A stretch of 64,000 bases of DNA, from positions 1 through 64,000 of the forward strand of contig JAKCPI010001790.1 in NCBI GenBank assembly GCA_023213315.1, given 5' to 3'. The stretch comes from Euborellia annulipes (Eukaryota; Arthropoda; Insecta; Dermaptera; Anisolabididae). Of the stretch, positions 12,295 through 63,668 are shown one piece after another. The notes beneath the pieces are model-generated. The model saw only the letters and a list, made by a program, of their open reading frames with translations, did not search any database and was not told the origin of the DNA. The position numbers and the translations under genes were made by a program. Every line of letters begins with the position of its first letter. Positions within the stretch are counted from its first letter, which is position 1.

Positions 12295-12329
12295 GCGTTT
12301 CGGTTTTAATTAAATAAAGCCATCATCAG
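12295..12329 (-). ncRNA. Hammerhead-like core (left arm)
   Basis: On the minus strand it reads CTGATGA, then a GG...CC hairpin with an A/T-rich loop, then GAAACGCC. The CTGANGA and GAAA elements are intact. GCC replaces the usual GUH cleavage triplet, so it may be inactive. Confidence 0.5.
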
Positions 12330-12442
12330 TTCTCAAGAGATTATTGGCTGTGCAAATGTTATATTTTTATATAATTTTGTATATGTTTATATAAAACAAC
12401 ACTCTGTGCATCCCAACCTTGGAGCCAATAATCTCTTGAGAA

Positions 12443-12476
12443 CTGATGATGGCTTTATTTAATTAAAACCGAAACG
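12443..12476 (+). ncRNA. Hammerhead-like core (right arm)
   Basis: Same module as the left arm on the opposite strand: CTGATGA at 12443-12449, GAAACG from 12471. It also has GCC in place of a GUC or GUU triplet. Confidence 0.5.
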
Positions 12477-12590
12477 CCTTCTGGATTGAGATCTTTATTC
12501 GATAGGGGCTGTCCTGTTTGGCTGACATCCTCTCTTCCTGTCTATTATTCTATTAGTATTTATTTCTTATGAAATAGTTTTCTTCTTTTT

Positions 12591-14653
12591 TTAAGATTTT
12601 TTTCTTCCCTCGTCAGAAAGTTTTCTTTTCATTAAAGAAATTCTATTGGTAACTACTCTTTGAGAATTAAAAAATTTTATTCTAAGTAAAACTCTTAATT
12701 TAACGAATGATTTTTCTAAAATTATAGGAATTTCTGGGCATTTTTTAAATACATATTTAGTTATTTTATTTACTATGTTTTTTTAAACTGCCTTTTAGAC
12801 CAGGCGCTGGAGGTAGTTGAGTATGCAAAATTTGAGGACCGAATTCTGACAATGGATTTGGGCTAAGAATAGCTCCCAGAATAAGGATCCGGATCTTGCC
12901 GGGCCAATTTTTGGTCCAATTTTTTTTTACCCCCCACCCCTCTAATCTCCATAGGAAATCAATGGAATGCATGCTAAGATGATGTGAAGACTTGCAATTA
13001 TGGTCAAATTCGAGTACTTAAAACTTCAAACAATGAAAAAACTGTCTTGTCAGCAACTGAGGGGATCCTCTATAGTCCCCTGAGAAGTACTATCTTGCCA
13101 CCAGTTGTGGTGGTCCCCTCTAACCCCTTCAACTCTTTTCTCTCCCTTTATTATACATTTAAATATACGGCCTAAACACCACGCCAAATTGTGGGGACCG
13201 GCAATTATGCTCATAATCCACTACCTGGTACCCCAATCAATGAAAAATACTATCTTGCCGCCAGCTGCGGTGGTCCCCTTTAACCCCTTCAACTCTTTTC
13301 TCTCCCTTTATTATACTTTTAAATATACGGCCTAAACACCATGCCAAATTGTGGGGACCGGCAATTATGTTCATAATCCACTACCCGGTACTCCAATAAA
13401 TGAAAAATACTATCTTGCCGCCAGCTGCGGTGGTCCCCTCTAACCCCTTCACCTCTTTTCTCTCCCTTTATTATAAATACACCAGGTAGTGGATTATGAG
13501 CATAATTGCCGGTCCCCACAATTTGGCATGGTGTTTAGGCCGTATATTTAAATTTATAACAGAGAGAGAGAAAAGATGTGAAGGGGTTAGAGGGGACCAC
13601 CGCAGCTGGCGGCAAGATAGTATTTTTCATTGATTGGGGTACCAGGTAGTGGATTATGAACTTAATTGCCGGTCCCCACAATTTGGAATGGTGTTTAGGC
13701 CGTATATTTAAATTTTTAATAAAGGGAGAGAAAAGAGGCGAAGGGGTTAGAGGGGACCACCACAACTGGTGGCAAGATAGTACTTCTCAGGGGACTATAG
13801 AGGATCCCCTCAGTTGCTGACAAGACAGTTTTTTCATTATTTGAAGTTTTAAGTACTCGAATTTGACCATAATTGCAAGTCTTCACATCATCTTAGCATG
13901 CATTCCATTGATTTCCTATGGAGATTAGAGGGGTGGGGGTAAAAAAATTGGACCAAAAATTGGCCCGGCAAGATCCGGATCCTTATTCTGGGGGCTATTC
14001 TTAGCCCAAATCCATTGTCAGAATTCGGTCCTCAAATTTTGCATACTCAACTACCTCCAGCGCCCGCTCTATTTGTTATATTTTTTTCTTCATCTAATTT
14101 ATCTTCTTCATCTTTTTCTGTCTGTGAACTATTTGTTTGTAGACTTGAAGTTTCAGAAACCTTCTTCATTAAATCTTCCAATATTTCTTTTTCTTCCTTT
14201 CTTTTATCTCGGGCCAATCGGGCTGATTCCTCAGGAATTGGTACATCACTTGGTTTTAAAAATAACGATGGAACAGCTGAAAAAATTGATATATTAATAA
14301 TATAAAATAAAAAGTAAAATTAGAATCTTAGTGGACATTGGTATAGCCTATAGTGAAAAAAGCCTTGTATATATATATATAGAGTATTTTTTACCTACCT
14401 GTTGGCTTTAATCGAATTTTGGGAGGTAAATTCATAATTTTCGCTCGCATGTCTTCTTGAAAATCAGATTTTGCACGTTGCAAATTCTTCCCGTTTTTGG
14501 ATTTACACTATCTTTTCGAAAACATCTTCTAATCCATTCTTTTCGTAGGCTATCATCTTTTGGAAATGGAAAAAACATTAATTTTTCTTCTCCTTCCTTT
14601 TGTTTATAAAAAGAATTTTTACAAATTGCAACTGAGCAAATTATTCCAGGCAT
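12591..14653 (-). pseudogene. THAP zinc-finger gene relic, broken by indel and palindrome insertion
   Basis: Minus strand. Exon 1 (14653-14399) starts MPGIICSVAIC and has THAP hallmarks: Cys6 and Cys11 (C-x4-C as in THAP1), an FPFPKD proline motif, the EWIRRC tryptophan and a third Cys in GRICNV. The expected C-x2-H-F is missing: the frame runs into a stop at 14432, and a second frame resumes with DFQEDMRAK. The frame change and the lost His fit a small deletion. A GT-AG intron (14398-14277, donor GTAGGT, acceptor TTTTTTCAG) joins to AVPSLF, the AVPxxF motif that ends THAP domains. A charged, coiled-coil-like stretch follows (residues like RLARDKRKEEKEILEDLMKKV). The 1.26-kb palindrome (12803-14064) then interrupts. 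Beyond it, 12783-12594 is open (CPEIPIILEKSFVKLRVLLR), with a stop at 12591-12593, and looks like a C-terminal tail. THAP proteins bind DNA and include transposase-derived genes. This copy cannot make an intact finger. Confidence 0.75.
12803..14064. mobile_element. Element E: 1.26-kb palindrome with internal 160-bp repeats
   Basis: Ends are inverted (GGCGCTGGAGGTAGTTGAG and its complement). Left arm: a unique outer part, then units starting ACTATCTTGCC at 13089, 13249 and 13409 (exact 160-bp period). Right arm: inverted units and the mirrored outer part. The centre is near 13480-13490. Arm identity is very high, including the unusual GGATCCGGATCTTGCC area, implying a recent origin or arm homogenisation. 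No clear target duplication or transposase. Confidence 0.85.
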
Positions 14654-14904
14654 CTAAAAGAATGATTAGAATCAAATATATATTTTAAATAATTGATTTA
14701 GTATTTCATTAATTACCTTGAATCCATGTAAAGAAAGCGCCACAAACACACAAATGAAAAGTTGATTGAAAAACAGCCTAAATCGAATATTTTGAAAAAG
14801 GTTATGATTAGAATAATATATATATTTTTTAACTATTTGATTTAACACTCAATTAATTACCTCCAATATAAGCAAATTTATAAAACAATGTCCAAATCGA
14901 TTTA

Positions 14905-15076
14905 TTAAAGCATGTGTAATGTGAAGCACAAATTATCAAATAGCTATGGGCGCTCAGAGCGTTTGTCACTAGGGGAATCTTGGACTCGAGTGACGTCATC
15001 TGCCAAAACCCCCCACCATTTTCCACTCCGTATGAGACAACCTTGTCTTTCTACTAACCTTGGAATATACAGTATA
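14905..15076. repeat. Right member of the distant inverted repeat pair and upstream flank
   Basis: 15033-15076 (CGTATGAGACAACCTTGTC and 'CTAACCTTGGAATATAC') mirrors 11540-11586. CRE-like GTGACGTCA lies at 14991-14999. It could be a promoter-proximal region of the THAP relic or the end of a 3.5-kb unit. Confidence 0.5.
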
Positions 15077-15078
15077 TA

Positions 15079-15171
15079 TCATGGGGGTGCCCCCCCCAAG
15101 AAGGCTTGTGGCCCCCCAGAGGATAGCTGGTCCCATGCCATCCCCCAGCCAAATTCTCTAGTTACGCCCAT
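15079..15171. repeat. hAT-like MITE fragment
   Basis: Begins CATGGGGGTGCC and ends TTACGCCCATG, resembling the inverted ends of the elements at 49.35 and 61.78 kb. No target duplication is visible. Confidence 0.45.
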
Positions 15172-15204
15172 GATAGGCCTATACATAATAGGGAGGCGCA
15201 AAAA

Positions 15205-15977: not shown

Positions 15978-15980
15978 TAA

Positions 15981-20188: not shown

Positions 20189-21019
<831 letters not shown>

Positions 21020-22482: not shown

Positions 22483-22709
22483 AGTTTTTTTTTTAACACT
22501 CACACAGTCTTTTCGACAACTCAGGCTTTATAAGACTTTGACGATATCCGTTATTGATTAATAAACATATTGGGGGTCCAGGCATTCTTATTTAAGCCAT
22601 TTGGTATCCAAATGGCTTAAATAAAATCATCGGATTGCCTGGGGTCCGAAACCTCGACTTTTGGAATACGAGGTTAGCACGCTAACCCCTACACCAAGCC
22701 CGAGGGCCA
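22483..22709 (-). mobile_element. tRNA-derived SINE-A
   Basis: T-run, CA-rich tail, 'CTTTTCGACAACTCAGGC' block, 'AAGCCATTTGGTATCC' palindrome, then a tRNA-like head with a decayed B-box, ending AAGCCCGAGGGC. Confidence 0.8.
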
Positions 22710-23039: not shown

Positions 23040-23431
23040 TTATATTTTTTATTTTAAACTTTTTAGTATTTTTAATTATAGATAGAGTATTAAAAAAAAG
23101 GAAGACAGGAAGCGTGAGGCATCAAATAAAGTACCACATTTGTTTGGTCTATTTTGATCAAAATAGCCATATCATTGTTGTCATCAAAAATGACCCTTAA
23201 GTATTAAATTTCACACCCCTCGGAAGTCTTTTGAAATTAAATTAATTCGCGTAAGGTTTCAAATAAAATACCACATTAGTTTGGTCTATTTTGGTAAAAA
23301 CCGACCGACAATTTGCGTCATCAAAAATGACTCTTAAATAACAAATTTCACACCTATAGCTCATCGAGAAGTGTCCTAAACAAAGAATAAAAGTTAATGA
23401 CCTTGAAAGAGCAAGTTAAATAAAAGCATTT
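23040..23431 (+). mobile_element. Element D, short copy with two satellite units
   Basis: Has the same AAGTACCACAT satellite motif (two units) and the right terminal repeat TTAAATAAAAGCATTT at 23416-23431, but no left palindrome. Directly abuts a repeat B copy. Confidence 0.8.
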
Positions 23432-23434
23432 AAA

Positions 23435-24114
23435 AAAATCTGGTGTGACTGGCGCACAGAACACAACTTTCTCTTACCTTCGGTAATCGAAAGTTGTGTT
23501 CTGTGCTTGTCACACCAGATTTTTTGTGTCGACATATATTTAGTTCCCGACAGTACGGAACATTTGAATTCAGATGTAAAATTTATAAGTATGGGAAAAT
23601 ATTTATATTTTGTTACCATGGCAACCATTTCTCCTATCTTCCCTATGAAATACAAGAGTAAAGTGGTCTTCAGAAGATTTCAATTGCAAAATGAGAATAT
23701 ACATTTTATTGAGAATCTAAAAATTAATTGATTTTTGAATTAAAAAAAAAATCGTTGGAGCAAATTTTGAGAAAATCGAAAAAAACTGAAAAAATACATC
23801 AGTAAAGTACTAGTACTCTTTGGCCGATTTTGATTAAAAGCTTATTTTTCCGGTCCCGGGGGGTGTTTAACTTAAATATAAAATTTCAACCTCGTAGCTC
23901 AATTCCTTCATCCTTAAAATTGAACACACACCCACCCACCCACCCACCCACACACCCACAGACAGACCATGTCGCGAAAACCACTTTTTTGGATTCAGGG
24001 GACCTCAAAACGTGAAGATCCATCAAAATCTCGACATCGAATTTTTGACATGAATCCAATACTTTCTCTCTATATATATATTACATATATACATAGGTAA
24101 GAGAAAGTAAAAAT
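23435..24114 (+). repeat. Repeat B, full-length
   Basis: Both terminal hairpins intact (CTGGTGTGAC...GTCACACCAG at the 5' end, ACTTTCTCTC...AAGAGAAAGT at the 3' end). A CCCA microsatellite occupies the poly-C position of the sister copy. No reading frame of note. Confidence 0.85.
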
Positions 24115-29787: not shown

Positions 29788-30048
29788 CATTATCATTATG
29801 ATATATAAAGCGCTATAGCGGCTAGCTCCCGTCTGTGCCGATCAGGACGCTGATTGGCTAGAGTTACAGGAATTGAAGCGGGAGCGGAAAATTTAAAATT
29901 TAAGTCAGAGAGGGAAATTTGAAAATTTCCAAACAGTCTGCAAGAATAAATTTATTTGAAGGCGGTATAAAGCCGAGTGTTGATAATCAAATAGGAAGAA
30001 TAAATGAGCAGGCAGCTAGTTAATTCAATTTATTAGTAAACCAGGGCC

Positions 30049-30080
30049 GACGTTTCGGTCACATATGGGACCATCCTTAG
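30049..30080 (-). ncRNA. Hammerhead-like core (left arm)
   Basis: Minus strand: CTAAGGA (one change from CTGANGA), a GGTC...GACC stem, then GAAACGTC. Helix I is convincing: GGCC and AACC 5' of the core pair with GGCC and GGTT 3' of it, across a small internal loop. Confidence 0.6.
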
Positions 30081-30274
30081 GGCCAGGTTAATGTCTGAAA
30101 ATATAAATAATCCTCGCCAAGTTATATTGGGCATACAAAATTGTAAGTAGCTTAATCATGATAATGTCTCAAATTTTATTATTATCGTACCATGGACAGA
30201 GAGTGAGTCATTCACTGTGTAAGCCCAATATAACTTGGCGAGGATTATTTATATTTTCAGACATTAACCTAGGC

Positions 30275-30306
30275 CTGAGGATAGTCCCATATGTGACCGA
30301 AACGTC
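30275..30306 (+). ncRNA. Hammerhead-like core (right arm)
   Basis: CTGAGGA at 30275-30281, a GTC...GAC stem, GAAACGTC at 30299-30306 with a GUC triplet. Outer AACC and GGTT can still pair as helix I. Confidence 0.65.
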
Positions 30307-30415
30307 GGCCCTGGTTTACTAATAAATTGAAATATAACTAGCTGCTTGTTCATTTATTATTCCTATAAGAATAAATTTGATGCATTTGCCCGCGAAACGC
30401 GGGCTTTACAACTGG

Positions 30416-32746: not shown

Positions 32747-32779
32747 CTGAAGATGGGTGCGAATTAATCCCGAAACGTC
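32747..32779 (+). ncRNA. Solo hammerhead-like core
   Basis: CTGAAGA at 32747-32753, a GGG...CCC stem with an A/T-rich loop, GAAACGTC at 32772-32779. No obvious mirrored arm. Helix I pairing is weak. Confidence 0.5.
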
Positions 32780-33479: not shown

Positions 33480-34212
33480 AAAGCAGTTCTAATTTTGAAC
33501 TATCTAGATTTTCTTAAGGCGTTATCTCTTTAAATTATGGAGATAGATGAATTACATAGAAATATAAAGTTTCAGTCCAATCGGAGCTGATTTAGTGGTG
33601 CAGAACACGGCTAAAAGTTTAATCGTTTTTTTCCGTTTTTTTTTTTTTAACTTTGACACCTCTAATACAATTTTTCCCATACCTGAATTCAAAAAACATA
33701 TTTTTACGATATTCTATAGTTCCTTAGCTTTCCAAAAATCATTAATTGGTGAATATCTATTAATTATCAGCGAAATTATGAATAAAATAGTTAAATATAT
33801 CCAAATAGTTCTAAGTTTATTCCTTTGACCTCTACTCTACTGTCGAAGAGAGCAAAGCGCCTAAAAGATAGGCAGCCAAATTGTTTTTTTTATATCAGAC
33901 TTTGATAACTGTTTTGTTTATAATTCCGTTAATTATTAAAAGATTTTCACAAATGAATAATTTTTGGAAAAACTAAAGAACTTTAGAATATCGTAAAAAT
34001 ATGTTTTTTGGATTCAGGGATGTAAAAAATTGTGTTAAGGGTGTCCAAAATTAAAAAAAAAAAATTCGATTTTTCAAAACTTAGCCGTGTTCTGCACCAT
34101 TAGCTCCGATTGGACTGAAACTTTATATTTCTATGTAATTCATCTATCTGTATAATTTAAAGGGGTAACGCCTTAAGAAAATCTAGATAGTCCAAAATTA
34201 GAAGAGCTTTAG
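33480..34212. repeat. Large fold-back, about 730 bp
   Basis: Left and right arms pair through 'TCTAGATTTTCTTAAGGCGT', 'TCCAATCGGAGCT', 'GCAGAACACGGCTAA' and 'CATATTTTTACGATATTCTA', in mirrored order. Imperfect, so older than the ribozyme fold-backs. No core motif seen. Confidence 0.8.
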
Positions 34213-35390: not shown

Positions 35391-37705
35391 GTGCTATAAA
35401 TGATTCAAAGCATAAAATTAATTATAAAAAAAAACATATCAATAAGAGTTGGGAACGTTTTCTATGGGATTTCCTTAGGTGTTTTTGGTCCGGGTTATCA
35501 TGAAAACCAGGGTCAATCCAAACAAAATAATTATGGGCTGAGCACTTCGTCATCATAGCTATCTAAATTGACTTCATAAGCCTATGCGGCAGAATAAAAA
35601 AAATTTTTTTTTGATCCCCTGTGTTGTTTGTAATATTTTCGCCAAAAAAATTATGTATGGTCGCTGAAAAGGTTGGGAACCATTGATCTAGAAAGCAAGA
35701 GCTTATTTCTTTTTCACTTTATAAAACGAATTTATAGGATCAAGTGTCCCTGGGAATTAAGGGCACAGAGAGATTTTTATTTATTCTCGAATCTCTTAAA
35801 AAAAAAAAAAAAAAATTCCATTTTTCCATTTGACGTGACGTAGAAATCAATTTCAATTCATTGAATCAAAACGTGGATTTCTTTTTATTTGCCCGAGGCA
35901 CTCTGAGCATCAAGTCACAGACCTCAAGCTTGGTCATCTGTAAAGTTAGTATTTCTTATTTCCCACTTGTCCTGTGCCGATGCTAAGAACAAAGTCTAAC
36001 CTCAACAGGCATCTTCTCAGTTCCCGCAGTTGAGTTCCCCTTTTATGCTTCTCCTTTTGTTTTTATTTTCTTCCTGGCTGCATGTGACCACTGGTCATTA
36101 TTGGTCTTCGGACCTTATGCACCCATTCCAAAAAAAAAAAAAAAAATGTCCTAAATGAGGAGGGATCTTCTCATTTCATATTTTCCATAAGTCAAATAGT
36201 CGAAATTTTTCTATAATCTCAACGTGAGTAAAAACCCAAGATCATAATTTTATTTAATCTAATGAAATATTAGCCTATTCATTTTTTTAACATCTGAGCT
36301 GCTCATTTATGGAATTTAATTTATCTAATGTAGCAGAGAGAGAGAGGGGGATTTACACCAATTAGACATTTTTTATTTTTAAGCTTTTTAAGGTAATATT
36401 TCATACAAGGTTTTCCACAGTTTTTTTTTTTTTTTTTTATCTCTCACTTTCTGATATTTTATTATTGGGCATTATTCAGTATTTTGGGGTCGGCATATCA
36501 ACTATTGACGCGACTGAAAGAAATAAGTCCCCCTTCACCCGCCCTGACGCTTAATGGGGTAGAGCTATCAGTTCTGTACCTAGAACTTTTGCCGCCCTTT
36601 CTAAGTCAATCAAAGGGTGGTTTTTATAAATTAACAAAAATAATAATTGAGACAATCTATAGCTAGGGAACTTTCTACATATATAGGCCTACTGTATATT
36701 CGAAATCATATAGTAATTCATAATTCGTGGAAATCGGATAGTAAACTTATAAAGTGAACAAGTTGTTTTTTTATAACTATAACTAAATATAAAAAATGGC
36801 GCCCCGAAATTTGTGCCGCACGGTGTGGACCGAATCCACCCCCCCTCCCTCCCTAGATACGCCACTGACTAGCATATAGAAATTAGATCAATCAATGAAG
36901 TAAGTGGCTGTTTTTCTATAGAGAGGAGAAGGAGCAAGAGCAGCCAAAAATTAAATCGGAGGCTTTTGTTTTTTGGCTGCACCTGCTCCTTCTCTTGTAC
37001 ATAGAAATTAGAATAAAAATGTATTTTTTGAATTAACGGCCGATCATTAATAAAAAAAGAAGCCACCTATAGGCCTATCATTAAATTGTAATTTTATTTT
37101 ATTTAACTTAAAAATGGAGATCAATCACAAAAATAAAGCGTCCAAGAATTCGCAACAATTTTGGAGAGCTGATAAGGATTAATAAATATCAAAAATATGT
37201 AACTTATATGAATTTTATGCGTTAGAGAAAATTTTGTAACTTAGCTATTCTCTAATTTGCGCCCTATAGTTACGATCTTCTGGCAAAATCAGTTTACTGT
37301 TACCTTCAATATTTGAATAGAATTTTTTTTTTTCTCTCTTTGGTAAGTAAGCCTAAAGGAAATGTAAACACACATGAGCTAATAAAGACAAAGACCAAAG
37401 GGGAAATGGAATATTTGGATTTAGCCCTTGACTGCTGTTGGCTCTCGATAGCTGGCTAAACTCTAACTCCCTCCCCCCCCACCCTTCTGGTCTGTCAATA
37501 ATCAATTATGAATCACTGTCCCTAATAGACACATGGAATTTATAATTGTTCCAATCACGTTAATGCCATCTTATTAGCTATGGGCAAATATTAAATCCGG
37601 ATTATTACTTAATTAAAATAATGTAGGCCTACTAGGGAATAAAAAGTGGGATAGATAGTCAATAGTGACGGATTTAGAATTTCCATTATAAATTTAGAGA
37701 AAACA
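35391..37705. other. Mostly AT-rich; two MITE right-end fragments
   Basis: 'GGTTGGGAACCATTG' near 35675-35690 and 'GATACGCCACTG' near 36856-36867 resemble hAT right ends without visible partners. A CT-rich patch lies at 35880-36110, and a short inverted repeat around 36920-36990 (GAGAAGGAGCA and its complement). No gene recognised. Confidence 0.4.
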
Positions 37706-38276: not shown

Positions 38277-38284
38277 TCTCTATT

Positions 38285-38551
38285 GCCCTCGGGGTTTGGT
38301 GTAGAGGTTAGCGTGCTAATCTCGTATACCAAACGTCACGGGTTCGGACTCCAGGCAGTCCGATAATTTTATTTAAGCCATTTGGATTCCAAATGGTTTA
38401 AATAAGAATGCCTGGACCTCTAATATGTGTATATTATCAATAACGGATATCGTCTTATATGGCCTGAGTTGCCGAAAAGACTGTATGAATGTGTGTGTGA
38501 GTGTCAGTGTGAATGAGAAAAAAAGTGTGAGTGTTGTTTAAAAAAAAAAAA
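38285..38551 (+). mobile_element. tRNA-derived SINE-A (second of pair)
   Basis: Head-to-tail with the first copy and complete. The 5' head starts in the first copy's duplicated target, so insertion was at or next to the same site. Confidence 0.85.
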
Positions 38552-38680
38552 TTTTCTTTTCATAATTAAAAAGAAAAGACGAGGGTCCGCCGCAGGCCCG
38601 AGCCAGCTGGGGGGGGGGTTCAGGAGGGCGAAGCCCCCTGGCTAGGCGCGAAGCCCGCCAAAGGTGGGCGACGCGGCTAG

Positions 38681-41674: not shown

Positions 41675-41758
41675 TCCTAAATATTAATCTTCTTTAGATA
41701 TGTAAGTGAGGCAGAGCCAGCAAATGAAAATTTTCAAGAGTAATTATAATTTAAAAAA

Positions 41759-43310
41759 AATGCTTTTATTTAAATTGAACTAAAAAGAGAGAAATATTGA
41801 ATTTAATTTAATTTAATAGTTCTTGTTCAAATTGTTGAATATTTATGACTTAAAAGAAAAGCGTGGAGCACTCATTGATAGCATAAGGAATTGTCTATAA
41901 CCTCTGAATCCCCTCGAAGCGTCTACGCTTTTATTTTAAGTCATAAATATTCAACAATTTTAACAAGAACAATTAAATTAAATTAAATTATTTCTCTATT
42001 TTTAGTTCAATTTAAATATAATAAATTATATTTTTATTCTAAACTTTTTACACTTATTTATTATATTGATAGATACAGTACACTGTAAAAAAAAATTTTA
42101 ATTTTAGTATGTTTTAGTATAGTAAATTTACAAATTTTCCTTGTAAATGATAACTATCATACATTTGTATACTAAATTTACAAATATATGCATTCAAAAA
42201 ATTTTTACAACCAAAAAACATTTTAAAATTACAATTCTCTTGGAAAATCAGAGTAAATATTGTAATTTTACCATACGATTTCTAATTTTACAATACAACG
42301 GCATTGTAATTTTAGAACACGGTTTGTAATTTTAGAAAAGGGTTTGTAATTTTACAAAAAGGTTTCTAATTTTACAATACAAGGGTATAGTAATTTTCCT
42401 TTTAAGGCTGTCTTCGACGGCCAACATGGTCGACTTCGTTTCGACTGCTTTTTAGCTTTCTTAATAAAGACATTTTTGGCACTATAAGGATTTATTTAAG
42501 TTATAATAATACAAAAAATAATAATATTATGATAACTTTAAGTTTATTTTTTATTTTATTATTTAGTAAAAATAGTTGACAATGAGGTCATACTTGAATG
42601 CTAAATAGCAGAGATAGAGCATTAGTTAACAGGTGATGCGATGGTCAAATGGGCTAGGCAGCAAGACTTCTACAAAAAAGGTCAGTGTTCAAATCCGGGA
42701 GGAATTTTTCATTAAATAAAAATATTTATTTCACTCCATTCAGGTAGAGACGTCCCCTAAAGGTCAATAACCTATGGGTCCAGTCGTTAAATTTTTTTTC
42801 TTTTTTTCTAAATATTAGTAAAATTACAAACATTTGGATTGTAAAATTGCTAAATATTTGTAAAATTACCAGACATTTGGATTGTAAAATTGCTAAATAT
42901 TAGTAAAATTACCAAATTTGGACTCGAAATTGCTAAATATTGGTAAAATTACCAGACATTTGGACTCGAAAATTGCTAAATATTAGTAAAATTACCACAC
43001 ATTTGTAAACGATTTTTGCAAAGAGTTTTGTAAAAATATAATTCAACTGTATAGTAAATTTAGTATCTATTGGTCTTGGAAATTTGCTTACAACAAAAAA
43101 ATTGTAAAATCATCGAAATTTTTTTTACAGTGTATTAAAAAAAGAAAGAGAGGAAACGTGAGGCTTCAAATAAAGTACCACATTAATTCGGCCTATTTTG
43201 GTCCAGTTAAAAATTATCGAATGTCATAAAAAAAGACTAGTAAATATCAAATTTTACACCTCTAGCTCATCTAGAAAATAGTCTTGAAAATAGATTAATT
43301 CGCATAGAGT
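41759..43310. mobile_element. Element D, copy split by a CACTG-ended element
   Basis: Left palindrome (about 41762-42020) as in the first D copy, then an insertion, then one satellite unit (AAGTACCACATTAA at about 43175). The right terminal repeat is lost. Confidence 0.75.
42081..43132. mobile_element. TIR element with CACTGTAAAAAA ends, inserted in D
   Basis: Ends CACTGTAAAAAA and TTTTTTTACAGTG, with TA on both sides (42079-42080, 43133-43134). The interior carries many 'TTTGTAATTTTA' and 'ATTAGTAAAATTACCA' repeats. A tRNA-like segment (about 42630-42790, B-box-like GTGTTCAAATCC) sits in the middle. No transposase; superfamily uncertain. Confidence 0.7.
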
Positions 43311-44294: not shown

Positions 44295-44548
44295 TATATT
44301 ATTTTATTTTAATTTAATTTTGATTGATTACTCCTCGTGTTGTAGGAAAACTATTTTTAGTATCAAGATGGGGATGATGAAATAATCCAACTACTGGAGT
44401 TGAAATGTTTTATTACTGGCGAACTCACTTTCGCCAAAAGCTATCAACTCCAGTAATTGGATTATTTCATCATCTCCATCTTGATACTAAAAAAGTATTT
44501 TACACGAAGAGTAACCACTAAAAATTGAATTAAAATAAAATAAATTTA
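44295..44548. repeat. Fold-back, about 254 bp
   Basis: 'AGTATCAAGATGG' and 'GATGATGAAATAATCCAA' near 44358-44390 are mirrored at 44455-44492, around a centre near 44422. Outer arms also pair (TTATTTTAATT...AATTAAAATAA). No GAAACG core seen. Confidence 0.8.
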
Positions 44549-45545: not shown

Positions 45546-45804
45546 AAACCAATAATGATGGAAAGTTAGTAATAATACTCAAATTATATGGTACACTATT
45601 TTAGAAAGATTTTTTTTGATTTAAAATGAATATGATTTTTTATTAACTTTTTTCTCAAATATAGTCAAGAATTCAGATTTCTATTTTTTTTAAACATTCA
45701 CACTTTTTCTCATTCACACTCACACTCACACACACATACACACAGTCTTTTCGGCAATTCAGGTCATATAAGACTTTGACGATAACCGTTATTAGGTAAT
45801 AGGA

Positions 45805-46083
45805 GACTTTGCAGCCAAGGAATTAAATAAAAAAACTTTTATTTAATTGTTAATCGTCGACGTTTCGGTCGCAACGACCTTCCTCAGGACGATTAATTGT
45901 TAGAATACAAGATTACCAGTATTATATTTAATTATCATTGTAAAATATACAATATTTATTTAAGCTATAGGTATTAAGAGCAAGTCACTCACTCTTAATA
46001 CATATAGCATAAATAAATATTGTATAATTTACAATGATAATTAAATGTAATACTGGTAATCTTGTATTCTAACAATTAATCGT
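45805..46083. mobile_element. Fold-back with one hammerhead-like core, inserted in a SINE
   Basis: Starts near TAATAGGAGACTTTGCAGCC, as does the copy at 59.69 kb. Inverted arms carry AACAATTAATCGTC and 'GATTACCAGTATTA' blocks. The right arm lacks the core and ends in AATTAATCGTCC. Confidence 0.8.
45859..45887 (-). ncRNA. Hammerhead-like core with strong helix I
   Basis: Minus strand: TTAATCGTC, then CTGAGGA, a GGTCG-TTG-CGACC hairpin, GAAACGTC, then GACGATTAA. The flanks pair over 9 bp as helix I and helix II has 5 bp. The GUC triplet is present. Confidence 0.75.
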
Positions 46084-46206
46084 CCAGACATTCTTATTTA
46101 AGCCATTTGGTATCCATTAAATAAAATCATCGTGCTACCTGGGATTCGAACCCCCGACCCTAGGTATACAAGGAAGGCGCGCTACCCACTAGGCCAAGCC
46201 CGACGG

Positions 46207-46967
46207 CATATATAAAATTAATAAATAAATAACATAATATTTCTTATTTTAATTCATCTGACTGCCTGGGATCCGAACCTGCGCCCCGTGGCTTTACGAC
46301 TATCAGTATTGACATTTGTCGTGTTGACTTCTAACCTCTCTACACCTGAGGTGCGGAGGGGGAGAAAACAGCTTTTATGTTTCCTTAATTTTATCCGCTT
46401 CGAGTAAGGTACGTGGGTATTATCTTGGATTTATTTTTTCTGTATGTTTGTAATTGAATACGATCAATTTATTATTAAAATCAAATCAGATGAAAGAAAA
46501 ACTCCATTAAATATTTTATAATAACGAGAGATTGTTTGCGGATAGTTCCTCACAAGCACGTGAATAGAGTTTTGCTCCAGGCAACCCGGCAATACATCCG
46601 TTTGGATGAATTTTAGTTCCCATTATGCTGATTACTTCGCTCTCTCTCTCTCTTTGAGTTTGAATATTTATCGAGGAAGAGTAATTTTTTTTTCCCCATT
46701 TAAAAAAAAATCTGCACATTTGTTTCTCTCTCAAGTTGATAAAATCGCTTGCCACTAAAAAACTTTTTTTAACAAAAAAAAAATTGCAACTTTAATTCCT
46801 TTTAGTACGTGTATAAAAAATTAACATGCAAATAAATGCATATATAAATATTGTGCTTTAAACTGCTAATAATCAGCCAGTCATGAAAATACAAGGGAAA
46901 TTGTTTATTTATATTAATGGGGTCTAATAATTTATTTTCGCTAAACATTCATTAAAGAAAAACTTGC
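46207..46967. other. No gene recognised
   Basis: A GC-richer patch at 46255-46340 with 'CTGCCTGGGATCCGAACC' is a SINE-A head fragment on the minus strand. The rest is AT-rich. Confidence 0.4.
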
Positions 46968-48106: not shown

Positions 48107-48346
48107 GTACCGTGCAGAGAAAAGATATTGGACAAGCTCGCGTCTGCCTGGCTTTTGAGCCTTACGCATGGGCAACCATTTACAACAGTCTGTATAGTTA
48201 GTTGCTTCCAAATGGACATGTCCCCTGCAGGGTTCTCTTAACAACAACTCAATATACAGACTTTTGTAAATGGTTGCCTGTGCGTGGGGCTCAAAAGTCA
48301 GGTGGACGCCAGCTTGTCCAATATCTTTTCTCTGTACGGTACATGG
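48107..48346. repeat. Fold-back, about 240 bp
   Basis: 'GAGAAAAGATATTGGACAAG', 'CTTTTGAGCC' and 'GGGCAACCATTTACAA' in the left arm are mirrored in the right arm to 'CTTTTCTCTGTACGGTAC'. The centre is near 48225. No hammerhead core seen. Confidence 0.8.
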
Positions 48347-48548
48347 GTTACAAATAGGAAAATAAAATAATTATTTTCAAGGTCCTCGCGGAGTAACGTG
48401 AGAACTAGTTGCAACTTTGACGAGTATCCTCCGGAGTTACTCCGCGAGACTCTGGAGGGACTTAATATACTGTATATTATTAAGGAGTCAAAAAAAAATT
48501 CAAGACATAGACAGCCAAAATTGTTTCTTTTTATTGCCGTTCCAGGCT

Positions 48549-48581
48549 GACGTTTCGGCCACTGGTCTAGGCCATCTTCAG
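48549..48581 (-). ncRNA. Hammerhead-like core (left arm)
   Basis: Minus strand: GCC, loop, GGCT, CTGAAGA, a GGCC...GGCC stem, GAAACGTC, AGCC, loop, GGC. Helix I has an inner 4 bp and outer 3 bp around an internal loop. Confidence 0.75.
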
Positions 48582-48742
48582 AGCCGGAGGCGAGAATAAT
48601 TGAAAATTACAATTTCAGCGACACACATTCGCATGAACGGAGCGCTCATAGGACAACGAAAGTTTCGTTGTCCTATGAGCGCTCCGTTCATGCGAATGTG
48701 TGTCGCTGAAATTGCAATTTTCAATTATTCTCGCCTCCGGCT

Positions 48743-48775
48743 CTGAAGATGGCCTAGACCAGTGGCCGAAACGTC
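48743..48775 (+). ncRNA. Hammerhead-like core (right arm)
   Basis: Identical organisation on the plus strand: CTGAAGA 48743-48749, GAAACGTC 48768-48775, with GGCT before and AGCC after forming helix I. Confidence 0.75.
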
Positions 48776-48920
48776 AGCCTGGAACGGCAATAAAAAAGAA
48801 ACAATTTTGGCTGTCTATGTCTTGAATTTTTTTTGACTCCTTAATAATAATACTTCCAGCCACAAAGACATACCTCACAATACTGTATATTACTTTCAAT
48901 TTGTCATGTAGCCTAAAGGA

Positions 48921-48956
48921 CTGAAGATGGTAAAATAAAATTTTCGCCGAAACGTC
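48921..48956 (+). ncRNA. Solo hammerhead-like core
   Basis: CTGAAGA, a GG...CC stem with a long A/T loop, GAAACGTC. It lies 80 bp beyond the previous fold-back and belongs to a different sequence family. Helix I is weak. Confidence 0.5.
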
Positions 48957-50211: not shown

Positions 50212-50496
50212 AAAGTCAACACTAATTAGACGAAATAATGTAATAATAATATTAGAGAATGAAATCATTGGACTGTTTGGTAGAATTATTATACATTTAC
50301 ACCAAATGGATTATTTTGTTTTGTAAAACTCTCAATTATTTAATTCAATTTAATTGTGTTAATGAAAAATTTTAAAAGGCTCTAGACTTTGAGAAGCCAT
50401 CCATATATCCTTTTTGAAAAAATGTGAATCGGAATTTTTTTTAACTTTCTTTATAGTAGATTATAAAGATCAAAATCTGGCTATTTTAATTCTTAC

Positions 50497-50765
50497 CCTG
50501 GTAGGAATTGCCAATGCTGACAATTGGCCGAACCTTGGGCCAGTTGTCATCAGTTGTCATTTGCCAAGCCTTGGGTAGTGACCAATGGGCCAAGGCTCGG
50601 ACCAGGCTTGGTCTATTCGTCTTCCCAGGGCTCGGTTTAATAATATAATACCTGCCTGGTCCGAGGCTTGTCCCAATGGTCATTACCCAAGGCTTGGCAA
50701 ATGACGACTGATGACAATTGGCCCAAGGTTCGGCCAATTGTCAGCATTGGCAATTCCTACCAGGG
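50497..50765. repeat. Fold-back inserted at the end of a B copy
   Basis: CCTGGTAGGAATTGCCAATG and its complement bound the element. Arms contain repeated CCAAGGCTTGG/CCTTGGGCC blocks. The right edge joins directly to B sequence (GACAGACCATGTC). Confidence 0.8.
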
Positions 50766-50904: not shown

Positions 50905-51868
50905 GGAGATCCAACATCCTCATTAACAATGTAGAAGGCTATTATGTTAAAACCTCAAAGAATTTAGAATCTTTTAAAAATGTAAGCTGAAATACAATAT
51001 TTATCATAAAAATATTAAAATAATACTGAAAAATAGGTTGTGGTCCCATATGTTTGGGAATAAGATTTGACCCCGAAATGGCAATCTCTCTTTTTCTGCT
51101 TAAAACGCAACAGCTGAAATGGATCGATTTCCCTATATGGGTTTAAAGTGTATTTAAATTTTTGTTTCAATTGAAAATTTTCTCTCGATGGTACTGAGAG
51201 GTTGGTTTAATTTACTTTTAATAGATGTCTCTTGTCTGCACGCGCACCTTTGGATAGCCCTTCTCTTGTTGAGCCTCTTTCAACTTCAATTGAAATTAAA
51301 TACTCGTGAAACGGTTTCGTTTAAACGACACCGACGACAGTTTAATTTCTTTTGAAGAAGAGAAAGAGAAGGGAAATCCAAGTCAAAATTGCAATTTATA
51401 AACAATGTCATTCCTTTTTATTTTCCCAACGATATATGAACATCTATATATATTATGATAAAGAAAACAGAAAGTGATATTGTTTAGGAAAAATATAATA
51501 AATATAAATCAATTTGTCAGCCTTTCTTGTTCTCGTTATTATGCGGATAGAAAAGAAAATGGCTGAGACTTGGAAATGATTCTGAGAGAGATGTTGACGA
51601 GACATTTATTAAATTTTTATATATATTTATGTTTCTTTTTATTCAAATGTAAATTATTCGAATAAATTTTAAAATTAAAATGAATTAAGAGGCAAAGAAT
51701 ATGAGCACGTTATTAATTGTCAAAAACAAAAAGAAAAAGATGAAAATAAATTTAAAAAAAGACCAAAGGGCCCAGTAACTACAAAAAATCAGCCTCCACC
51801 ACTTAGGGGTTTTGTAAATTATGTAGAATCACGATCGAAGATTAAGCGATGCGTTAAAATAGGAACCG
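50905..51868. other. AT-rich, no recognisable feature
   Basis: No gene or repeat family recognised. Confidence 0.4.
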
Positions 51869-52002: not shown

Positions 52003-52540
52003 CGAAGGCAGGTCAATAAGTCCGTGACTTTTTGAATTTTCCGCCTCTTAACTGAAATGGCAACACTGCTCCTGTTAGCAGACAACTATCAGCTGACTCC
52101 TGTCGAAATTTGAACCAGCTGGGTCTTTTAGTTTTTGTTTGACATCCATTAGACCTAATACCTCGTGATTTGAGAACAAAATGGAAAAAAGTGAATTTCG
52201 TGTGCTCCATGGCAAAAATCCATGAATTGGGATACGAATTGCTCCCTCATCCGCCCTATTCTCGGGATTTAGCCCAGAGTGACTATTTCTTGTTTCCAAA
52301 CCTGAAAAAATGGCTCTGCGGAAAGAGATTTGACTCCAACGATGAAATCATCTCACAAATAAATAAATACCTATTTTGATGCCCTCGACAAATCTTATTT
52401 TTTGGAAGGGATAAAAAAAATTGGAGAAACGTTGGACAAAGTGTAGAGCTCAAAGAAGACTACGTTGAAAAATAAAATAATTTTTTATCCAAAAACCTGT
52501 GTTTCATTCAAAAAGTCACGGACTTATTGACCTGCCCTCG
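52003..52540 (+). mobile_element. Internally deleted mariner element
   Basis: 538 bp between TA duplications (52001-52002, 52541-52542). Terminal repeats contain AGGTCAATAAGTCCGTGACT and complement, with one mismatch over about 34 bp. Full mariners are about 1.3 kb, so over half is missing, but both ends needed for mobilisation in trans look intact. Confidence 0.9.
52181..52482 (+). pseudogene. Mariner transposase remnant
   Basis: 52181 opens MEKSEFRVL, the N-terminus typical of mariner transposases. Within a few codons it runs into a deletion joint near 52207-52212. The other side (in another frame from 52209) reads MAKIHELGYELLPHPPYSRD then LAQSDYFLFPNLKKW, the C-terminal part around the third catalytic Asp of the DD34D triad. 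Two further frame changes occur before the DYVEK-type C-terminus near 52470-52482. The DNA-binding domain and first two catalytic Asp residues are gone. Non-functional. Confidence 0.85.
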
Positions 52541-52542
52541 TA

Positions 52543-54396: not shown

Positions 54397-54507
54397 AAAA
54401 AAAAAAAAAAAAAAAAAACAAGAAATACACCCAATGTAGTTTCTTTATTGAGTCAAAAAAAGCATATATGGTATAAGTATATATGCCTTATTGACACAGC
54501 CCCAGGT

Positions 54508-54540
54508 CTGATGATGGTCCAAACCTAGGACCGAAACGTT
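54508..54540 (+). ncRNA. Hammerhead-like core, unit 1
   Basis: CTGATGA 54508-54514, GGTCC-loop-GGACC stem, GAAACGTT 54533-54540 (GUU triplet). CACA and CCC upstream can pair with GGG and TGTG downstream as an interrupted helix I. Confidence 0.75.
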
Positions 54541-54622
54541 GGCCGTGGGTTATTGTGATCAATTGAGTCAAAAAAGGCATATATGGTATAAGTATATATG
54601 CCTTATTGACACAGCCCCAGGT

Positions 54623-54655
54623 CTGATGATGGTCCAAACCTAGGACTGAAACGTT
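54623..54655 (+). ncRNA. Hammerhead-like core, unit 2
   Basis: 115 bp after unit 1. One change turns the inner stem C into T (GGACT), giving a G-U pair, so the stem is kept. Confidence 0.7.
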
Positions 54656-54737
54656 GGCCGTGGGTTATTGTGATCAATTGAGTCAAAAAAGGCATATATG
54701 GTATAAGTATATATGCCTTATTGACACAGCCCCAGGT

Positions 54738-54770
54738 CTGATGATGGTCCAAACCTAGGACTGAAACGTT
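54738..54770 (+). ncRNA. Hammerhead-like core, unit 3
   Basis: 115 bp after unit 2 and identical to it through the core. Confidence 0.7.
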
Positions 54771-54799
54771 GGCCGTGGGTTGGTCACAATAACCCCGCC

Positions 54800-54832
54800 A
54801 ACGTTTCAGTCCTAGGTTTGGACCATCATCAG
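54800..54832 (-). ncRNA. Hammerhead-like core, inverted unit 1
   Basis: Minus strand CTGATGA, stem, GAAACGTT. It carries the same GGACT variant as units 2 and 3, with a truncated downstream flank. Confidence 0.7.
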
Positions 54833-54875
54833 ACCTGGGGCTGTGTGGGGCTGTTATTGTGATCAACCCACGGCC

Positions 54876-54908
54876 AACGTTTCGGTCCTAGGTTTGGATC
54901 ATCATCAG
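54876..54908 (-). ncRNA. Hammerhead-like core, inverted unit 2
   Basis: Minus strand core with GGACC as in unit 1, but with GATCC opposite, which breaks one stem pair. Confidence 0.65.
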
Positions 54909-55008
54909 ACCTGGGGCTGTGTCAATAAGGCATATATACTTATACCATATATGCCTTTTTTGACTCAATAAAGAAACTACATTGGGTGTATTTCTTGTTT
55001 TTTTTTTC

Positions 55009-57566: not shown

Positions 57567-57702
57567 TTTTTTAACACTCACACTTTTTTCTAATTCCCAC
57601 TCACACTCACACACTGTCTTTTCGGCAACTTAGGCCATATAAGACATTTACGATATCCGTTATTGATTAATATACATATTGGCCGTCCAGGCATTCTTAT
57701 TT
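57567..57702 (-). mobile_element. SINE-A, tail half, cut by a MITE
   Basis: Tail, 'CTTTTCGGCAACTTAGGCC' and 'CCAGGCATTCTTATTT', then the MITE starts. The tRNA-head half is not found beyond it. Confidence 0.7.
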
Positions 57703-57957
57703 GGACCCTGTTATGCAATGGTGTGTCAAAGACCAAACATCGAGTTTTGAGAAAATCAACATTAAAGTTTTTTTGTTTTCATTGGATTATATATAATTTT
57801 TTTGTCAATTGTGCAAGTAACATTAAATATAAATTTTTTTAGGACATATTTAATAAAAAATACTATTAATTAAAGAAAGCAATTTTAAAACAATATTCCG
57901 TGCTTAACTCAATTTTGAATTTTTTGACGCTTGACACACCATTGCATAACAGGGTCC
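57703..57957. mobile_element. 255-bp MITE with perfect 27-bp inverted ends
   Basis: Begins GGACCCTGTTATGCAATGG; 57931-57957 is the exact complement of 57703-57729. Flanks share ATTT (57699-57702, 57958-57961). AT-rich interior. Superfamily not recognised. Confidence 0.85.
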
Positions 57958-57961
57958 ATTT

Positions 57962-58640
57962 AATAAACTAAGCCTTAAAAACATGGCACAAGTTTTTCAA
58001 TTTGAAAATAATTTTTTAGTGTCGCAAATTAAAATATTTTCCATTAGGTTTAAATTGGTTTATTGAATAATGTCTATTTTAATTTCTCTTGTTTAGAGAG
58101 ATCGAATATAAATTCTCAAATGACCATTTCTAAGTTTAGTGTTATGGAATTTTGAATTAGTGCATATATTAATAGTTTCCATCTAGAAATTCCCTTTAGG
58201 GAGAGAAAGGGTGGAAATTAATTATTGAAAATACAAATTATAATTATGAGCAATAATAATAACAACGTATTATTACGTAATTATACATGCATGTTTATTA
58301 TAATAACAAAATAATGTCGATTTTTATGAAATATGAGCTGCCTTCGATCGGCTCTCTCATATTTTGGTGGATTTATATTTTTTTTTTTTTAGCCTGTTAA
58401 AATCTAAATTGCTAATTTATTTTGGGATTTTTGTGATGAAATTTTAAACAAAAGAACTGAATAATGGAATTTAGTTGTCCAAAATTCGGAATCTAATATT
58501 CCAATTCTATTTGATTGAGAGTTATTTCAGTTTTAGTGAAAAAATAACGGCTAGGATAATTTCAGAGGTGGATCAAATTAAATATATGGACATGTATTGG
58601 TAGTCATTTCAATTTAAATAATTTTTTCTTGCTCGCGAAC
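57962..58640. other. AT-rich, no recognisable feature
   Basis: No gene or repeat family recognised. Confidence 0.4.
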
Positions 58641-58899: not shown

Positions 58900-59689
58900 T
58901 GGCGAACCCAAGGCCCCAAGCACGAGAAGCTAAAGTCTTTTCCGTGAATCACGAGTCGAGGGCTTTTCTGATATATCAGTTAAAAAATATTAATTAAATC
59001 GTTCTATCTAGAGAGACTAAATAGATTCTAATGGATTTATTATTTATTAATGAGATATTTTAAAATCAATATTCAAATAATTTAAAATCGACAGATTTGT
59101 AAACGCAAATTTACAATTGAGTCTCATCTATCCTTTAAGTTTTGATATTTTTGTGGTGTTCTTTTTTTTATTTAAGAGGTGATATAAATTGATTAAATAA
59201 AGTATCCATTTGACCTGAGTGTTTTGCTGATCCCATTCTTTTTCTCTCTCTCCCTTTTGGAGACAAATATATAGTTACTTTTACTTAGCCTCAAATCAAT
59301 TTTTTTCTAATAAATAAATTTCCAGTCTGCCAAAAATTCAACAGATCGAAATCTCGATCGCGACATCGAATTTGGGACATGAATCTAATACTTTCTCTCT
59401 CTATTTATTAAAATTTATAGAGGTAAGAGAAAGTAAAAAAAATCAATGGAAACATATTTCTAAAAAATCTTTAGTTCTCTCTAAAATTGTTTTCCTGGTT
59501 GTACTACTGGTTAAAAGTATTATTTTTGGGAAATAAGTAACTTTAATTAATTCGTAAAATTTGGTATTTGGGGAGGGGGGGCAATGCTGAGGTCTTGCCC
59601 AGGGCCCCAAAAAAGCTAGTTACGGCCCTGTTAATATATATTATTTTAATTAACGTTGAACTAGTGATGAGAAGTGGCTGTAGACTTTG
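58900..59689. other. AT-rich with repeat B 3' end at 59335-59437
   Basis: 59335-59437 has 'GACATGAATCTAATACTTTC' and the AAGAGAAAGT hairpin end of B. 59565-59635 is a GC-rich MITE-like end (ACGGCCCTG). The rest is unrecognised. Confidence 0.5.
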
Positions 59690-59940
59690 AATTGGGTATA
59701 GGAGACTTTGCAGCCAAGGAAATTAAATAAAAAACTTATTTAATTATTAATCGTCGACGTTTCGGTCGCAAGTCACGACCTTCCTCAGGACGATTAATTG
59801 TTAGAATACAAGGTTGACAGTATTATATTTAATTATCATTGTAAGTTATATAATTTTTAATTGGGCTGTATGTATTAAGAGTAACTTGTTCGCTTATGAC
59901 TTATTACAATCAAGTCCATTGAAGTCTCCTATACCCAATT
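59690..59940. mobile_element. Fold-back with one hammerhead-like core
   Basis: Ends AATTGGGTATAGGAGACTT and its complement. Same family as 45805-46083 (shared GGAGACTTTGCAGCCAAGG and TTAATCGTCGACGTTTCGG). Confidence 0.85.
59756..59788 (-). ncRNA. Hammerhead-like core with longer stem-II loop
   Basis: Minus strand: CTGAGGA, GGTCG, 7-nt loop, CGACC, GAAACGTC. The sister core at 45859 has a 3-nt loop; the 4-nt difference lies wholly in the loop. Helix I (AATCGTC with GACGATT) is intact. Confidence 0.75.
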
Positions 59941-60204
59941 TTAATTAACTTTTGACTTTATTTTTTTAATTTTATTTTAACTAGGACTGTGGCCAGTAGC
60001 TACCCAATTTTACAATAATTCTTTAGCATGTTTTATTTAAAGATTTGTTAAGAAAATGATTGGATAATTTTAATGAAACTATCATTATTAAGTGCTAGAG
60101 ATGTTAATTTTTATAAAACTTAAACATATAACCTAGTGTTTTTAATTTAATTTTTTTTTCATATATTAATAGTGGCCCGCGGGGGGGGGCGGGGGGGGGG
60201 GGAT

Positions 60205-62370: not shown

Positions 62371-62394
62371 GAAAAAAAAACCTTTTTAATGCAC

Positions 62395-62475
62395 ATTTCG
62401 ACACTCGAATGTAATCATCAAAAGTGATTTAACAACTTAATTAGTTTAGTCACTTATGATGACACAGGAGTGTCG
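62395..62475. repeat. Small palindrome with hammerhead-like remnants
   Basis: 'TTTCGACACTC' and 'GAGTGTCGAA' are mirrored about 62435. Each strand reads TGATGA, a short stem and CGAA(A), a degraded version of the core. Confidence 0.4.
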
Positions 62476-62595
62476 AATGCGCAAATTTGAAATTTATAAC
62501 TTAGTGTTTTTAATTTTTCAATGTTTCAACTATATGGAATGGTTTAAATTTAATTATATCTTTGTCATACATATTTTCAGAATGAACGAAACATT

Positions 62596-62621
62596 CTGAA
62601 GAGTTACGTCTACGAAACGTT
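62596..62621 (+). ncRNA. Solo hammerhead-like core, canonical length
   Basis: CTGAAGA 62596-62602, GT-7 nt-AC stem II directly closing, GAAACGTT 62614-62621. Unlike the other cores there is no extra base between CTGANGA and stem II. Confidence 0.6.
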
Positions 62622-63523
62622 GGCAATGAGAATAAATTAGTTAGTATTTACTTCCTATCTCAAGAATATGTTTATGTAGCCTACTATAAACAACTGGCCT
62701 CCACACACACCCCTACAGCCAGCCGGTCCACCCACTGATGTGGCGACATAGATCTATACAATAGACTATAAAAACCGAAATATAATTGAATGATAAATAA
62801 CGAAGCCATTATAATAAAATCTTGAAAAATTTAATATAACTCAAATTTATCCGTCCATATGTATAAAACCTGATGCATTTTAAAAATTAAAATGTATTGT
62901 GTGTAAATCAAATGATGAGCTTTCGTGATAGCGTACCAAGGTGGGTGGCTTGGGTCACATTCTAAAGCCACCCATAGGTTTGGTTATGAAGAATGTTTAA
63001 CGTTCTATTTGTGTTTTTTTTTTTTTGGGCAAAATATGCAATTCAGATTTTTTCTCTCTTTACGGGAACCCTTGCAATTAGAGTGGCCAATAAAATGATT
63101 CGAAACGATCCTATTTCGAGCTATTATGAAAATCAGTGTCAGAAATTATTAAAACCCCGAAGCTATAGTATCAATGTTAATTCCACATTAAAGAAATGTG
63201 TACAACTACGCTTTGATCACGAAAATTATTTTAGTTAGGGTCGTTATTAGCAATAGATTATTTCAAAATTTACCTGTTCAAAAAAACCAGGCATATGCAC
63301 AAGCAAAAAAAAGGCTTGGTAAAAAAAACCCGAAATGCATTATAAGATTAATCTTTATTCTAAATTTGTTATAAAAAAATATTATAAACGATCCTCTGGT
63401 CCATTTGAGCAGAGATTGAACTCTTGCTTCATGACCGACGAGTCAGAGGTTAGCTTTCAAATTTCAGTGATGAAATTTATCTAAATTATAAACGTATGGA
63501 GGAGGGCAGTCGAATTTACAGGA
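62622..63523. other. No gene recognised
   Basis: A frame at 62993-63238 has mixed residues in its second half but no known motif. Otherwise AT-rich. Confidence 0.35.
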
Positions 63524-63574
63524 AGGTGAAGAAAATAGACTTTATTCGGCCTAAAATTATTTATTTCCTATGTT

Positions 63575-63608
63575 AACGTTTCTGGGATTATACGTCTCCC
63601 ATCTTCAG
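63575..63608 (-). ncRNA. Hammerhead-like core (left arm)
   Basis: Minus strand CTGAAGA, TGGGA...TCCCA stem (5 bp, closing T-A), GAAACGTT. Confidence 0.65.
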
Positions 63609-63634
63609 GACCTGTTATGTTGTATTTTAAAGTG

Positions 63635-63668
63635 CTGAGGATGGGAGACGTATAGTCCTCGAAACGTT
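63635..63668 (+). ncRNA. Hammerhead-like core (right arm)
   Basis: CTGAGGA 63635-63641, GGGA with TCCT (one G-U), GAAACGTT 63661-63668. Confidence 0.6.

Follow-up and report, generated by a model that had tools for sequence, protein, structure and literature searches.

Head-to-head Penelope-like elements with minimal hammerhead motifs in the genome of Euborellia annulipes

A stretch of 64,000 nucleotides from the dermapteran Euborellia annulipes (assembly GCA_023213315.1, contig JAKCPI010001790.1, positions 1 to 64,000; hereafter the window) contains a short, scattered motif that resembles the hammerhead ribozyme, and this raises the questions of whether it is such a ribozyme, what kind of element carries it and why most of its copies lie in mirror-image repeats. 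The motif was confirmed as hammerhead-type, that is, as a predicted self-cleaving RNA. Penelope-like elements (PLEs) in the host genome often stand as head-to-head mirror pairs with unequal ends. We consider it probable, though well short of certain, that the window cores represent minimal type I hammerheads, situated about 55–100 nt inside the 3′ ends of PLEs and of short ORF-less copies (ORF, open reading frame), and that the pairs arise by two-sided target-primed reverse transcription. The evidence comes from one assembly and consists of sequence only.

An earlier note, made from the letters of the window, had listed 16 cores at ten loci and proposed a check with a covariance model. A scan of the window with the pattern CTGANGA-N4..30-GAAACG gave 17 matches at 10 loci, compared with an average of 0.04 and a maximum of 1 in shuffled sequence, and a scan allowing one mismatch added a mirror copy at 30050–30080 with the core CTAAGGA. 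A covariance model with rough calibration, built from 15 viral-contig hammerheads and zero window sequences, recovered 17 cores in the window, each with at least 18.0 bits (E ≤ 0.016), and the next-best match reached 10.4 bits (E = 1). The model accepts the mirror copy at 30050 and drops the pattern match at 62596, which has no helix II and scores 9.2 bits (E = 2). The family is real, and its membership differs from the listed one by these two cores and by the total of 17. CTGANGA is present in 16 of the 17 model-supported cores, the 30050 copy being the exception.

The proposed consensus of core, helix II, minimal ACGU and mostly a GUC or GUU triplet is present and is supported by covariation and by the model matches; in the 12-kb copies, GCC replaces the GUC triplet. 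In an alignment of 12 rows, 11 of them distinct, helices I and II contained 20 double-change cells compared with 6.8 (standard deviation 2.1) after shuffling, and none of 500 shuffles equalled this value. The count of pairs changed on both sides, taken alone, was not significant in the 12 rows (73 of 500 shuffles). For helix I, pairing with the own flank beat pairing with swapped flanks (p = 0.0005, 11 rows, in which F45 and F59 are kin and F63m and F63p represent one locus). Helix I was found at the 12, 30, 45, 48, 54 and 59 kb loci, is weak at 48921 and was absent at 32747, 62596 and 63 kb in the flank-pairing test of 10 loci. The claim that pairing is maintained is upheld by the covariation of helices I and II and fails in part, helix I being missing or weak at four of ten loci. 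Helix III is not closed in the window cores, and GAAACGTH leads directly into helix I. The cores are thus minimal type I hammerheads with helix III cut to ACGU, not canonical type I. This reduced ACGU helix III is the minimal form described for PLEs in reviews (PMC7761336, PMC7229834).

A single extra base before helix II had been suggested as a possible mark of a variant. This idea fails, as the form is common in viral-contig hammerheads and across the host genome. Among 84 viral-contig loci, retrieved by a pattern that itself demanded one extra base, 20 were complete three-helix hammerheads (4 bp or more in both helix I and helix II, closed by CGTH), and the base was T in 18 of these; examples are L003, L008, L027, L030, L035, L039, L074, L082 and others. 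The host assembly (903,471,066 bases in 25,949 contigs) contains 30,280 exact matches to the T form CTGANGATGG...CCGAAACGT (15,238 + 15,042; reversed control 0) and 320 matches to CTGANGAGG...CCGAAACGT (160 + 160), and among the CTGANGAGG matches listed, many read as an extra G. A viroid hammerhead with an extra nucleotide has already been published, according to a title cited in PMC6155905. In genome contigs of bacteria, the pattern matches listed seemed for the most part accidental and were set aside.

No hammerhead was reported in an Rfam scan of the window. This silence carries no weight, because control contigs that contain complete hammerheads gave no hammerhead match either. None was reported in 14 extra-base loci, nine of them among the 20 three-helix loci, in five of these searched at E ≤ 10, or in eight contigs picked by the canonical pattern, of which six have three helices of at least 4 bp by a strict count. 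With its positive controls silent, Rfam was discarded as an uninformative arbiter of the motif. Clear three-helix contigs missed by the Rfam copy used are L234, L236, L254, L260, L266 and L276.

Fifteen of the 17 model-supported cores, at seven of nine loci, fall within inverted repeats of the window, a setting that the earlier note does not mention. The 19 inverted repeats listed by hand cover 10.7% of it, and the enrichment of cores in this list, which includes the core-bearing repeats, has a binomial probability of 5e-6. Core pairs within inverted repeats point outward, with the exception of the 54-kb locus, and the distance from the cleavage site to the arm end is 55–102 nt in nine window arms. 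The same orientation prevails in the host assembly, where a spacing of 170–200 nt was found for 1,974 outward and 157 inward pairs among opposite-strand pairs, with 0 in the reversed controls. For the first 100 motif places listed, neighbours within 2 kb were 18 (-,+), 1 (+,+) and 0 (+,-).

The element that carries the module was identified by way of a pair (L392) whose centre contains the end of an ORF. Comparison of the last 64 residues of this ORF with the host assembly gave 150 scored matches among 2,921 candidates, and the neighbours of these 150 within 6 kb were 25 (-,+), 2 (-,-), 1 (+,+) and 0 (+,-). The 64-residue end alone had no Pfam family above the cut-off, no PDB chain and no protein-database homologue. 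In four of four longer ORF pieces, from genome loci outside the window, RVT_1 and GIY-YIG exceeded the Pfam cut-offs, and 65 homologues were found, among them proteins from Temnothorax, Megachile, Anolis and Hydra. The distance from the stop codon to a core 3′ of it is 394–434 nt in 24 of 30 loci, a set that includes overlapping ones. The link to PLEs, anticipated from the ribozyme type, is thereby borne out, as the same module stands 3′ of reverse transcriptase (RT) and GIY-YIG ORFs in the host genome. Short palindromic copies and coding copies have one common layout. The window itself has about 30% GC and no stop-to-stop ORF of more than 134 amino acids, and a Pfam search with five long window ORFs gave one sub-threshold match only (PF19709, E = 0.08). 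On the window's own contig, about 7.5 kb past the window, a PLE ORF end was located at G000:C1319:71489-71674 (+); it has 61% identity to the L392 piece and an open frame of 217 amino acids.

The ends were analysed in 60 outward genome loci, taken from the first-listed rows and not drawn at random, and in four window loci; a direct repeat was sought beyond the common part of both arms for every offset as far as 75 nt, with a threshold score of 10. Such a repeat was found in 27 of 64 loci compared with 2 of 192 controls in which loci exchanged their flanks. De-duplication by common flank words drops 14 of the 64 loci, including W12 and W63, and may be too strict, for which simple repeats are our guess as to the cause; thereafter, a direct repeat remained in 23 of 50 loci compared with 5 of 500 swapped combinations. 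Within the window, perfect flanking repeats were found for W30 (12 bp), W48 (13 bp), W63 (14 bp) and F59 (11 bp). From 11 ORF-bearing pairs examined, two had no core on one side, where the remaining sequence is short, and nine were testable. Eight of the nine have a duplication of 12–15 bp (one of 18 bp with a mismatch), and none was found in the ninth. Altogether, the length of the duplication varies and is mostly 11–15 bp. Fixed TTAA or AATT target sites, which had been guessed from the palindrome ends, were dropped once these longer duplications emerged.

Nearly all duplication-bearing pairs have one arm clearly longer than the other. In the 23 short loci with a duplication, one arm is longer by 19–39 nt in 22 and by 25–39 nt in 21, and the eight ORF-bearing pairs with a duplication all differ at their ends by 22–34 nt, so that the ends are unequal by at least 19 nt in 30 of 31 pairs. 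The longer arm often has CAGCCA, complementary to TGGCTG near the arm end. Alternative tail pairings in other families are CAGCTA/TAGCTG, CCAGC/GCTGG and CAGGC/GCCTG, and this variety may be read as covariation of a tail stem. TTGGCTG was rejected as an invariant tail sequence, being seen in three of nine tails, and was retained only as one form of the pairing.

Mirror pairs with unequal ends hint at the mode of PLE insertion, for which the steps after priming remain unvalidated in the 2024 in vitro work (PMC11167929). In the coding family, an ORF with RT and GIY-YIG is followed by 3′ sequence of about 425 nt, then by the hammerhead, an AATAAA-like signal and a tail capable of forming a stem. 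The PLE protein would cut both target strands and prime one cDNA from each, one cDNA starting 3′ of the tail stem and the other in the tail-stem loop, and the two cDNAs, stopped at different 5′ points, would be joined head to head. If both target strands primed a separate cDNA, head-to-head pairs would follow, and the rule of one tail per pair would mean that either start site serves a single time. With an independent choice of start site at each end, at most half of the pairs would be unequal, compared with 30 of 31 observed. As a tentative extension, which we hold to be possible rather than probable, PLE integration might be obligately asymmetric, with two subunits, both strands primed and complementary start sites, and one-tailed pairs might be its normal product. 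An Anolis PLE protein has been reported to cut and extend both strands in vitro and to initiate at two neighbouring positions within an AC-rich stem-loop, and the stretch between the two start sites is the known optional tail of 30–40 bp (PMC11167929). Inverted one-tailed Penelope copies have already been published; what is proposed here is two-sided priming with two start sites, for which no earlier proposal concerning inverted PLE copies was found in the open literature searched. The one-tail rule predicts for a purified PLE protein that the second strand starts at the site unused by the first. Further, the Euborellia loci can join the in vitro findings on two start sites (PMC11167929) with the genome data of 2013 on inverted copies (PMC3846280).

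Several observations weigh against two-sided priming. At score 10, 27 of the 50 de-duplicated loci have no duplication; none was found for W12 by the flank repeat search, and F45 has no target duplication and a mirror arm that ends in the core. One of the 23 short pairs has near-equal ends, with a difference of 3 nt. The comparison of own with swapped tails for the tail stem gave p = 0.019, a weak result as many families share the motif. The 157 inward pairs genome-wide and the inward-facing 54-kb locus have the opposite orientation, and the outward to inward comparison is confined to opposite-strand pairs. The in vitro study detected no strand difference in the start site (PMC11167929). The window's own families appear to be tied to the coding PLEs by shared layout alone. 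Finally, W48 is a near-perfect palindrome (48472–48853) to within 1 nt of its centre, which self-priming would explain too.

Self-priming is the alternative that survives best, in particular for perfect palindromes such as W48, although we consider it unlikely. Here, the end of an (antisense) transcript would fold back and be extended on itself, and the resulting head-to-head hairpin would then be inserted. This has been proposed for head-to-head Penelope copies with junction palindromes (PMC3846280), and in Euborellia other pairs besides W48 are palindromic almost to the centre, and outer arms are identical over the common stretch in several pairs, e.g., L343, L350, L363 and L392. However, a copied-back arm should repeat the tail of the first arm, whereas the ends are unequal in 30 of 31 duplication-bearing pairs, and inner arm ends are cut at different points in some pairs (L382), though a large loop could mimic this. 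The 1,974 outward pairs at one spacing are enough for a sequence-only test of two-sided priming against self-priming. In family A, separate loci (L333, L335, L336 and L338) have the start of the shorter inner arm close to an identical GTTGCCAAGAG, and neither of the two mechanisms alone explains this common start.

Retrozyme-like elements that spread via circular RNAs from tandem hammerheads are very unlikely as the source of the family. The 54-kb locus with its 115-bp tandem units at 54447–54781 would fit them, and type I hammerheads in short animal tandem repeats are known (PMC7229834), but the window yielded no further tandem of units with a core, its remaining core loci being solo or inverted. 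Of the two sources named in the earlier note, PLEs and retrozymes, the link to PLEs is borne out, and a retrozyme-like tandem order is confined to one locus of the window. A foldback DNA transposon, similar to a miniature inverted-repeat transposable element and with hammerheads inside its terminal inverted repeats, is disfavoured and most improbable. Long inverted repeats without an ORF, together with 11 or more further inverted repeats of the window that have no core, would agree with it, but the ends are unequal both in short and in ORF-bearing pairs, the duplication has no fixed length and the same layout occurs in elements with an RT and GIY-YIG ORF. Two independent neighbouring insertions of one family, or later rearrangements, are equally disfavoured and hardly probable, for although self-targeting by PLE proteins is possible (PMC11167929) and nested cases occur (L390, with a short interspersed nuclear element (SINE) in its centre), one duplication brackets the entire pair and inward and outward pairs should then be alike in number.

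The Euborellia elements can be placed beside the closest known systems. The minimal hammerheads of PLEs (Cervera and de la Pena 2014; Lunse et al. 2017, via PMC7761336 and PMC7229834) are of type I without helix III, are dispersed by the thousands in animal genomes and are thought to cleave as dimers; the window cores resemble them in the type I core without helix III, in the association with PLEs and in the genome-wide dispersal. In the rotifer Adineta vaga, Penelope elements have inverted pseudo-long terminal repeats, one of them 37 bp shorter and one with an optional 31-bp tail, target site duplications of 8–10 bp, a head-to-head preference and junction palindromes, and self-priming with an antisense transcript as template was put forward to account for them (PMC3846280). 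In contrast to these few copies with duplications of 8–10 bp, the Euborellia pairs number thousands and have duplications of mostly 11–15 bp. The Poseidon PLE of Anolis carolinensis, PAc, likewise combines RT and GIY-YIG, a hammerhead and a stem-loop tail with two start sites, but is arranged in tandem with the hammerhead at the ORF start, whereas in Euborellia the layout is head to head and the hammerhead follows about 425 nt after the stop (PMC11167929). An Anolis protein that may be PAc (P0024, 836 amino acids) has 32% identity over 93% to the L404 ORF. Animal non-LTR (long terminal repeat) retrozymes likewise have type I hammerheads in short low-GC repeats (PMC7229834), but form direct tandems of about 170–400 nt, whereas the window contains inverted pairs except for the one 115-bp tandem.

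The W48 transcript is predicted to fold into a single hairpin with -343 kcal/mol for 382 nt, and mirror-image copies are probably poor sources of ribozyme because the long transcript hairpin would hide the hammerhead. For the Anolis element, ribozyme mutants still insert in vitro, and cleavage requires protein (PMC11167929). Either in dimeric form or aided by protein, the hammerhead might trim tandem or read-through transcripts, and we name such trimming as its likeliest role with low confidence.

Table 1. Core-bearing loci of the window and their target duplications.
Feature	Position	Strand	Cores	Remark
W12 inverted-repeat element	12193..12580		outward, 12295-12329 (-) and 12443-12477 (+)	by self-comparison and model
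W30 target duplication, left	29942..29953	+		12 bp
W30 inverted-repeat element	29954..30366		outward, 30050-30080 (-, CTAAGGA) and 30275-30305 (+)	longer tail on left arm
W30 target duplication, right	30367..30378	+		12 bp
Solo core	32747..32778	+		helix II present, helix I absent; outside inverted repeats
F45 element	45791..46082		45860-45887 (-)	within SINE; mirror arm stops at core start
W48 target duplication, left	48467..48479	+		13 bp
W48 inverted-repeat element	48480..48879		outward, 48550-48581 (-) and 48743-48774 (+)	longer tail with CAGCCA on right arm
W48 target duplication, right	48880..48892	+		13 bp
Solo core	48921..48955	+		helix I weak; outside inverted repeats
Complex locus	54409..55007		54508, 54623, 54738 (+), then 54801-54832 and 54877-54908 (-)	cores face inward
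F59 target duplication, left	59644..59654	+		11 bp
F59 element, kin of F45	59655..59938		59757-59788 (-)	right arm retains only about 20 bp of outer end
F59 target duplication, right	59939..59949	+		11 bp
Unsupported core	62596..62619	+		no helix II; 9.2 bits
W63 target duplication, left	63476..63489	+		14 bp
W63 inverted-repeat element	63490..63711		outward, 63576-63608 (-) and 63635-63667 (+)	no helix I; longer tail on left arm
W63 target duplication, right	63712..63725	+		14 bp

Besides these loci, the window contains inverted repeats without a core, as judged by pattern, fuzzy scan and model, at 4485–4803, 7729–7928, 9354–9575, 33480–34210, 36913–37007 and 41723–42062 and further at 44299–44543, 48107–48342, 50496–50765, 51250–51381 and 57694–57966. 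These are probably other foldback elements. At 12796–14071, a 1.28-kb inverted repeat (91%) whose halves each contain 160-bp tandem units has no core either.

A SINE-type family of about 280 bp, which reads as tRNA-like, occurs at 37993–38561, 39488–39784, 22496–22707, 3479–3741 and 4232–4508. One copy is split by F45 into halves at 45677–45790 and 46083–46207, with about 20 bp of the SINE missing. A tandem repeat with a 144-bp unit in 7.8 copies lies at 4973–6095, with diverged pieces near 23112–23438 and 43129–43303, and at 20688–20823 a stretch of 136 consecutive C precedes a CA repeat. A 78-amino-acid frame at 52143–52379 (+) resembles the end of a mariner transposase, which we take to be a relic.

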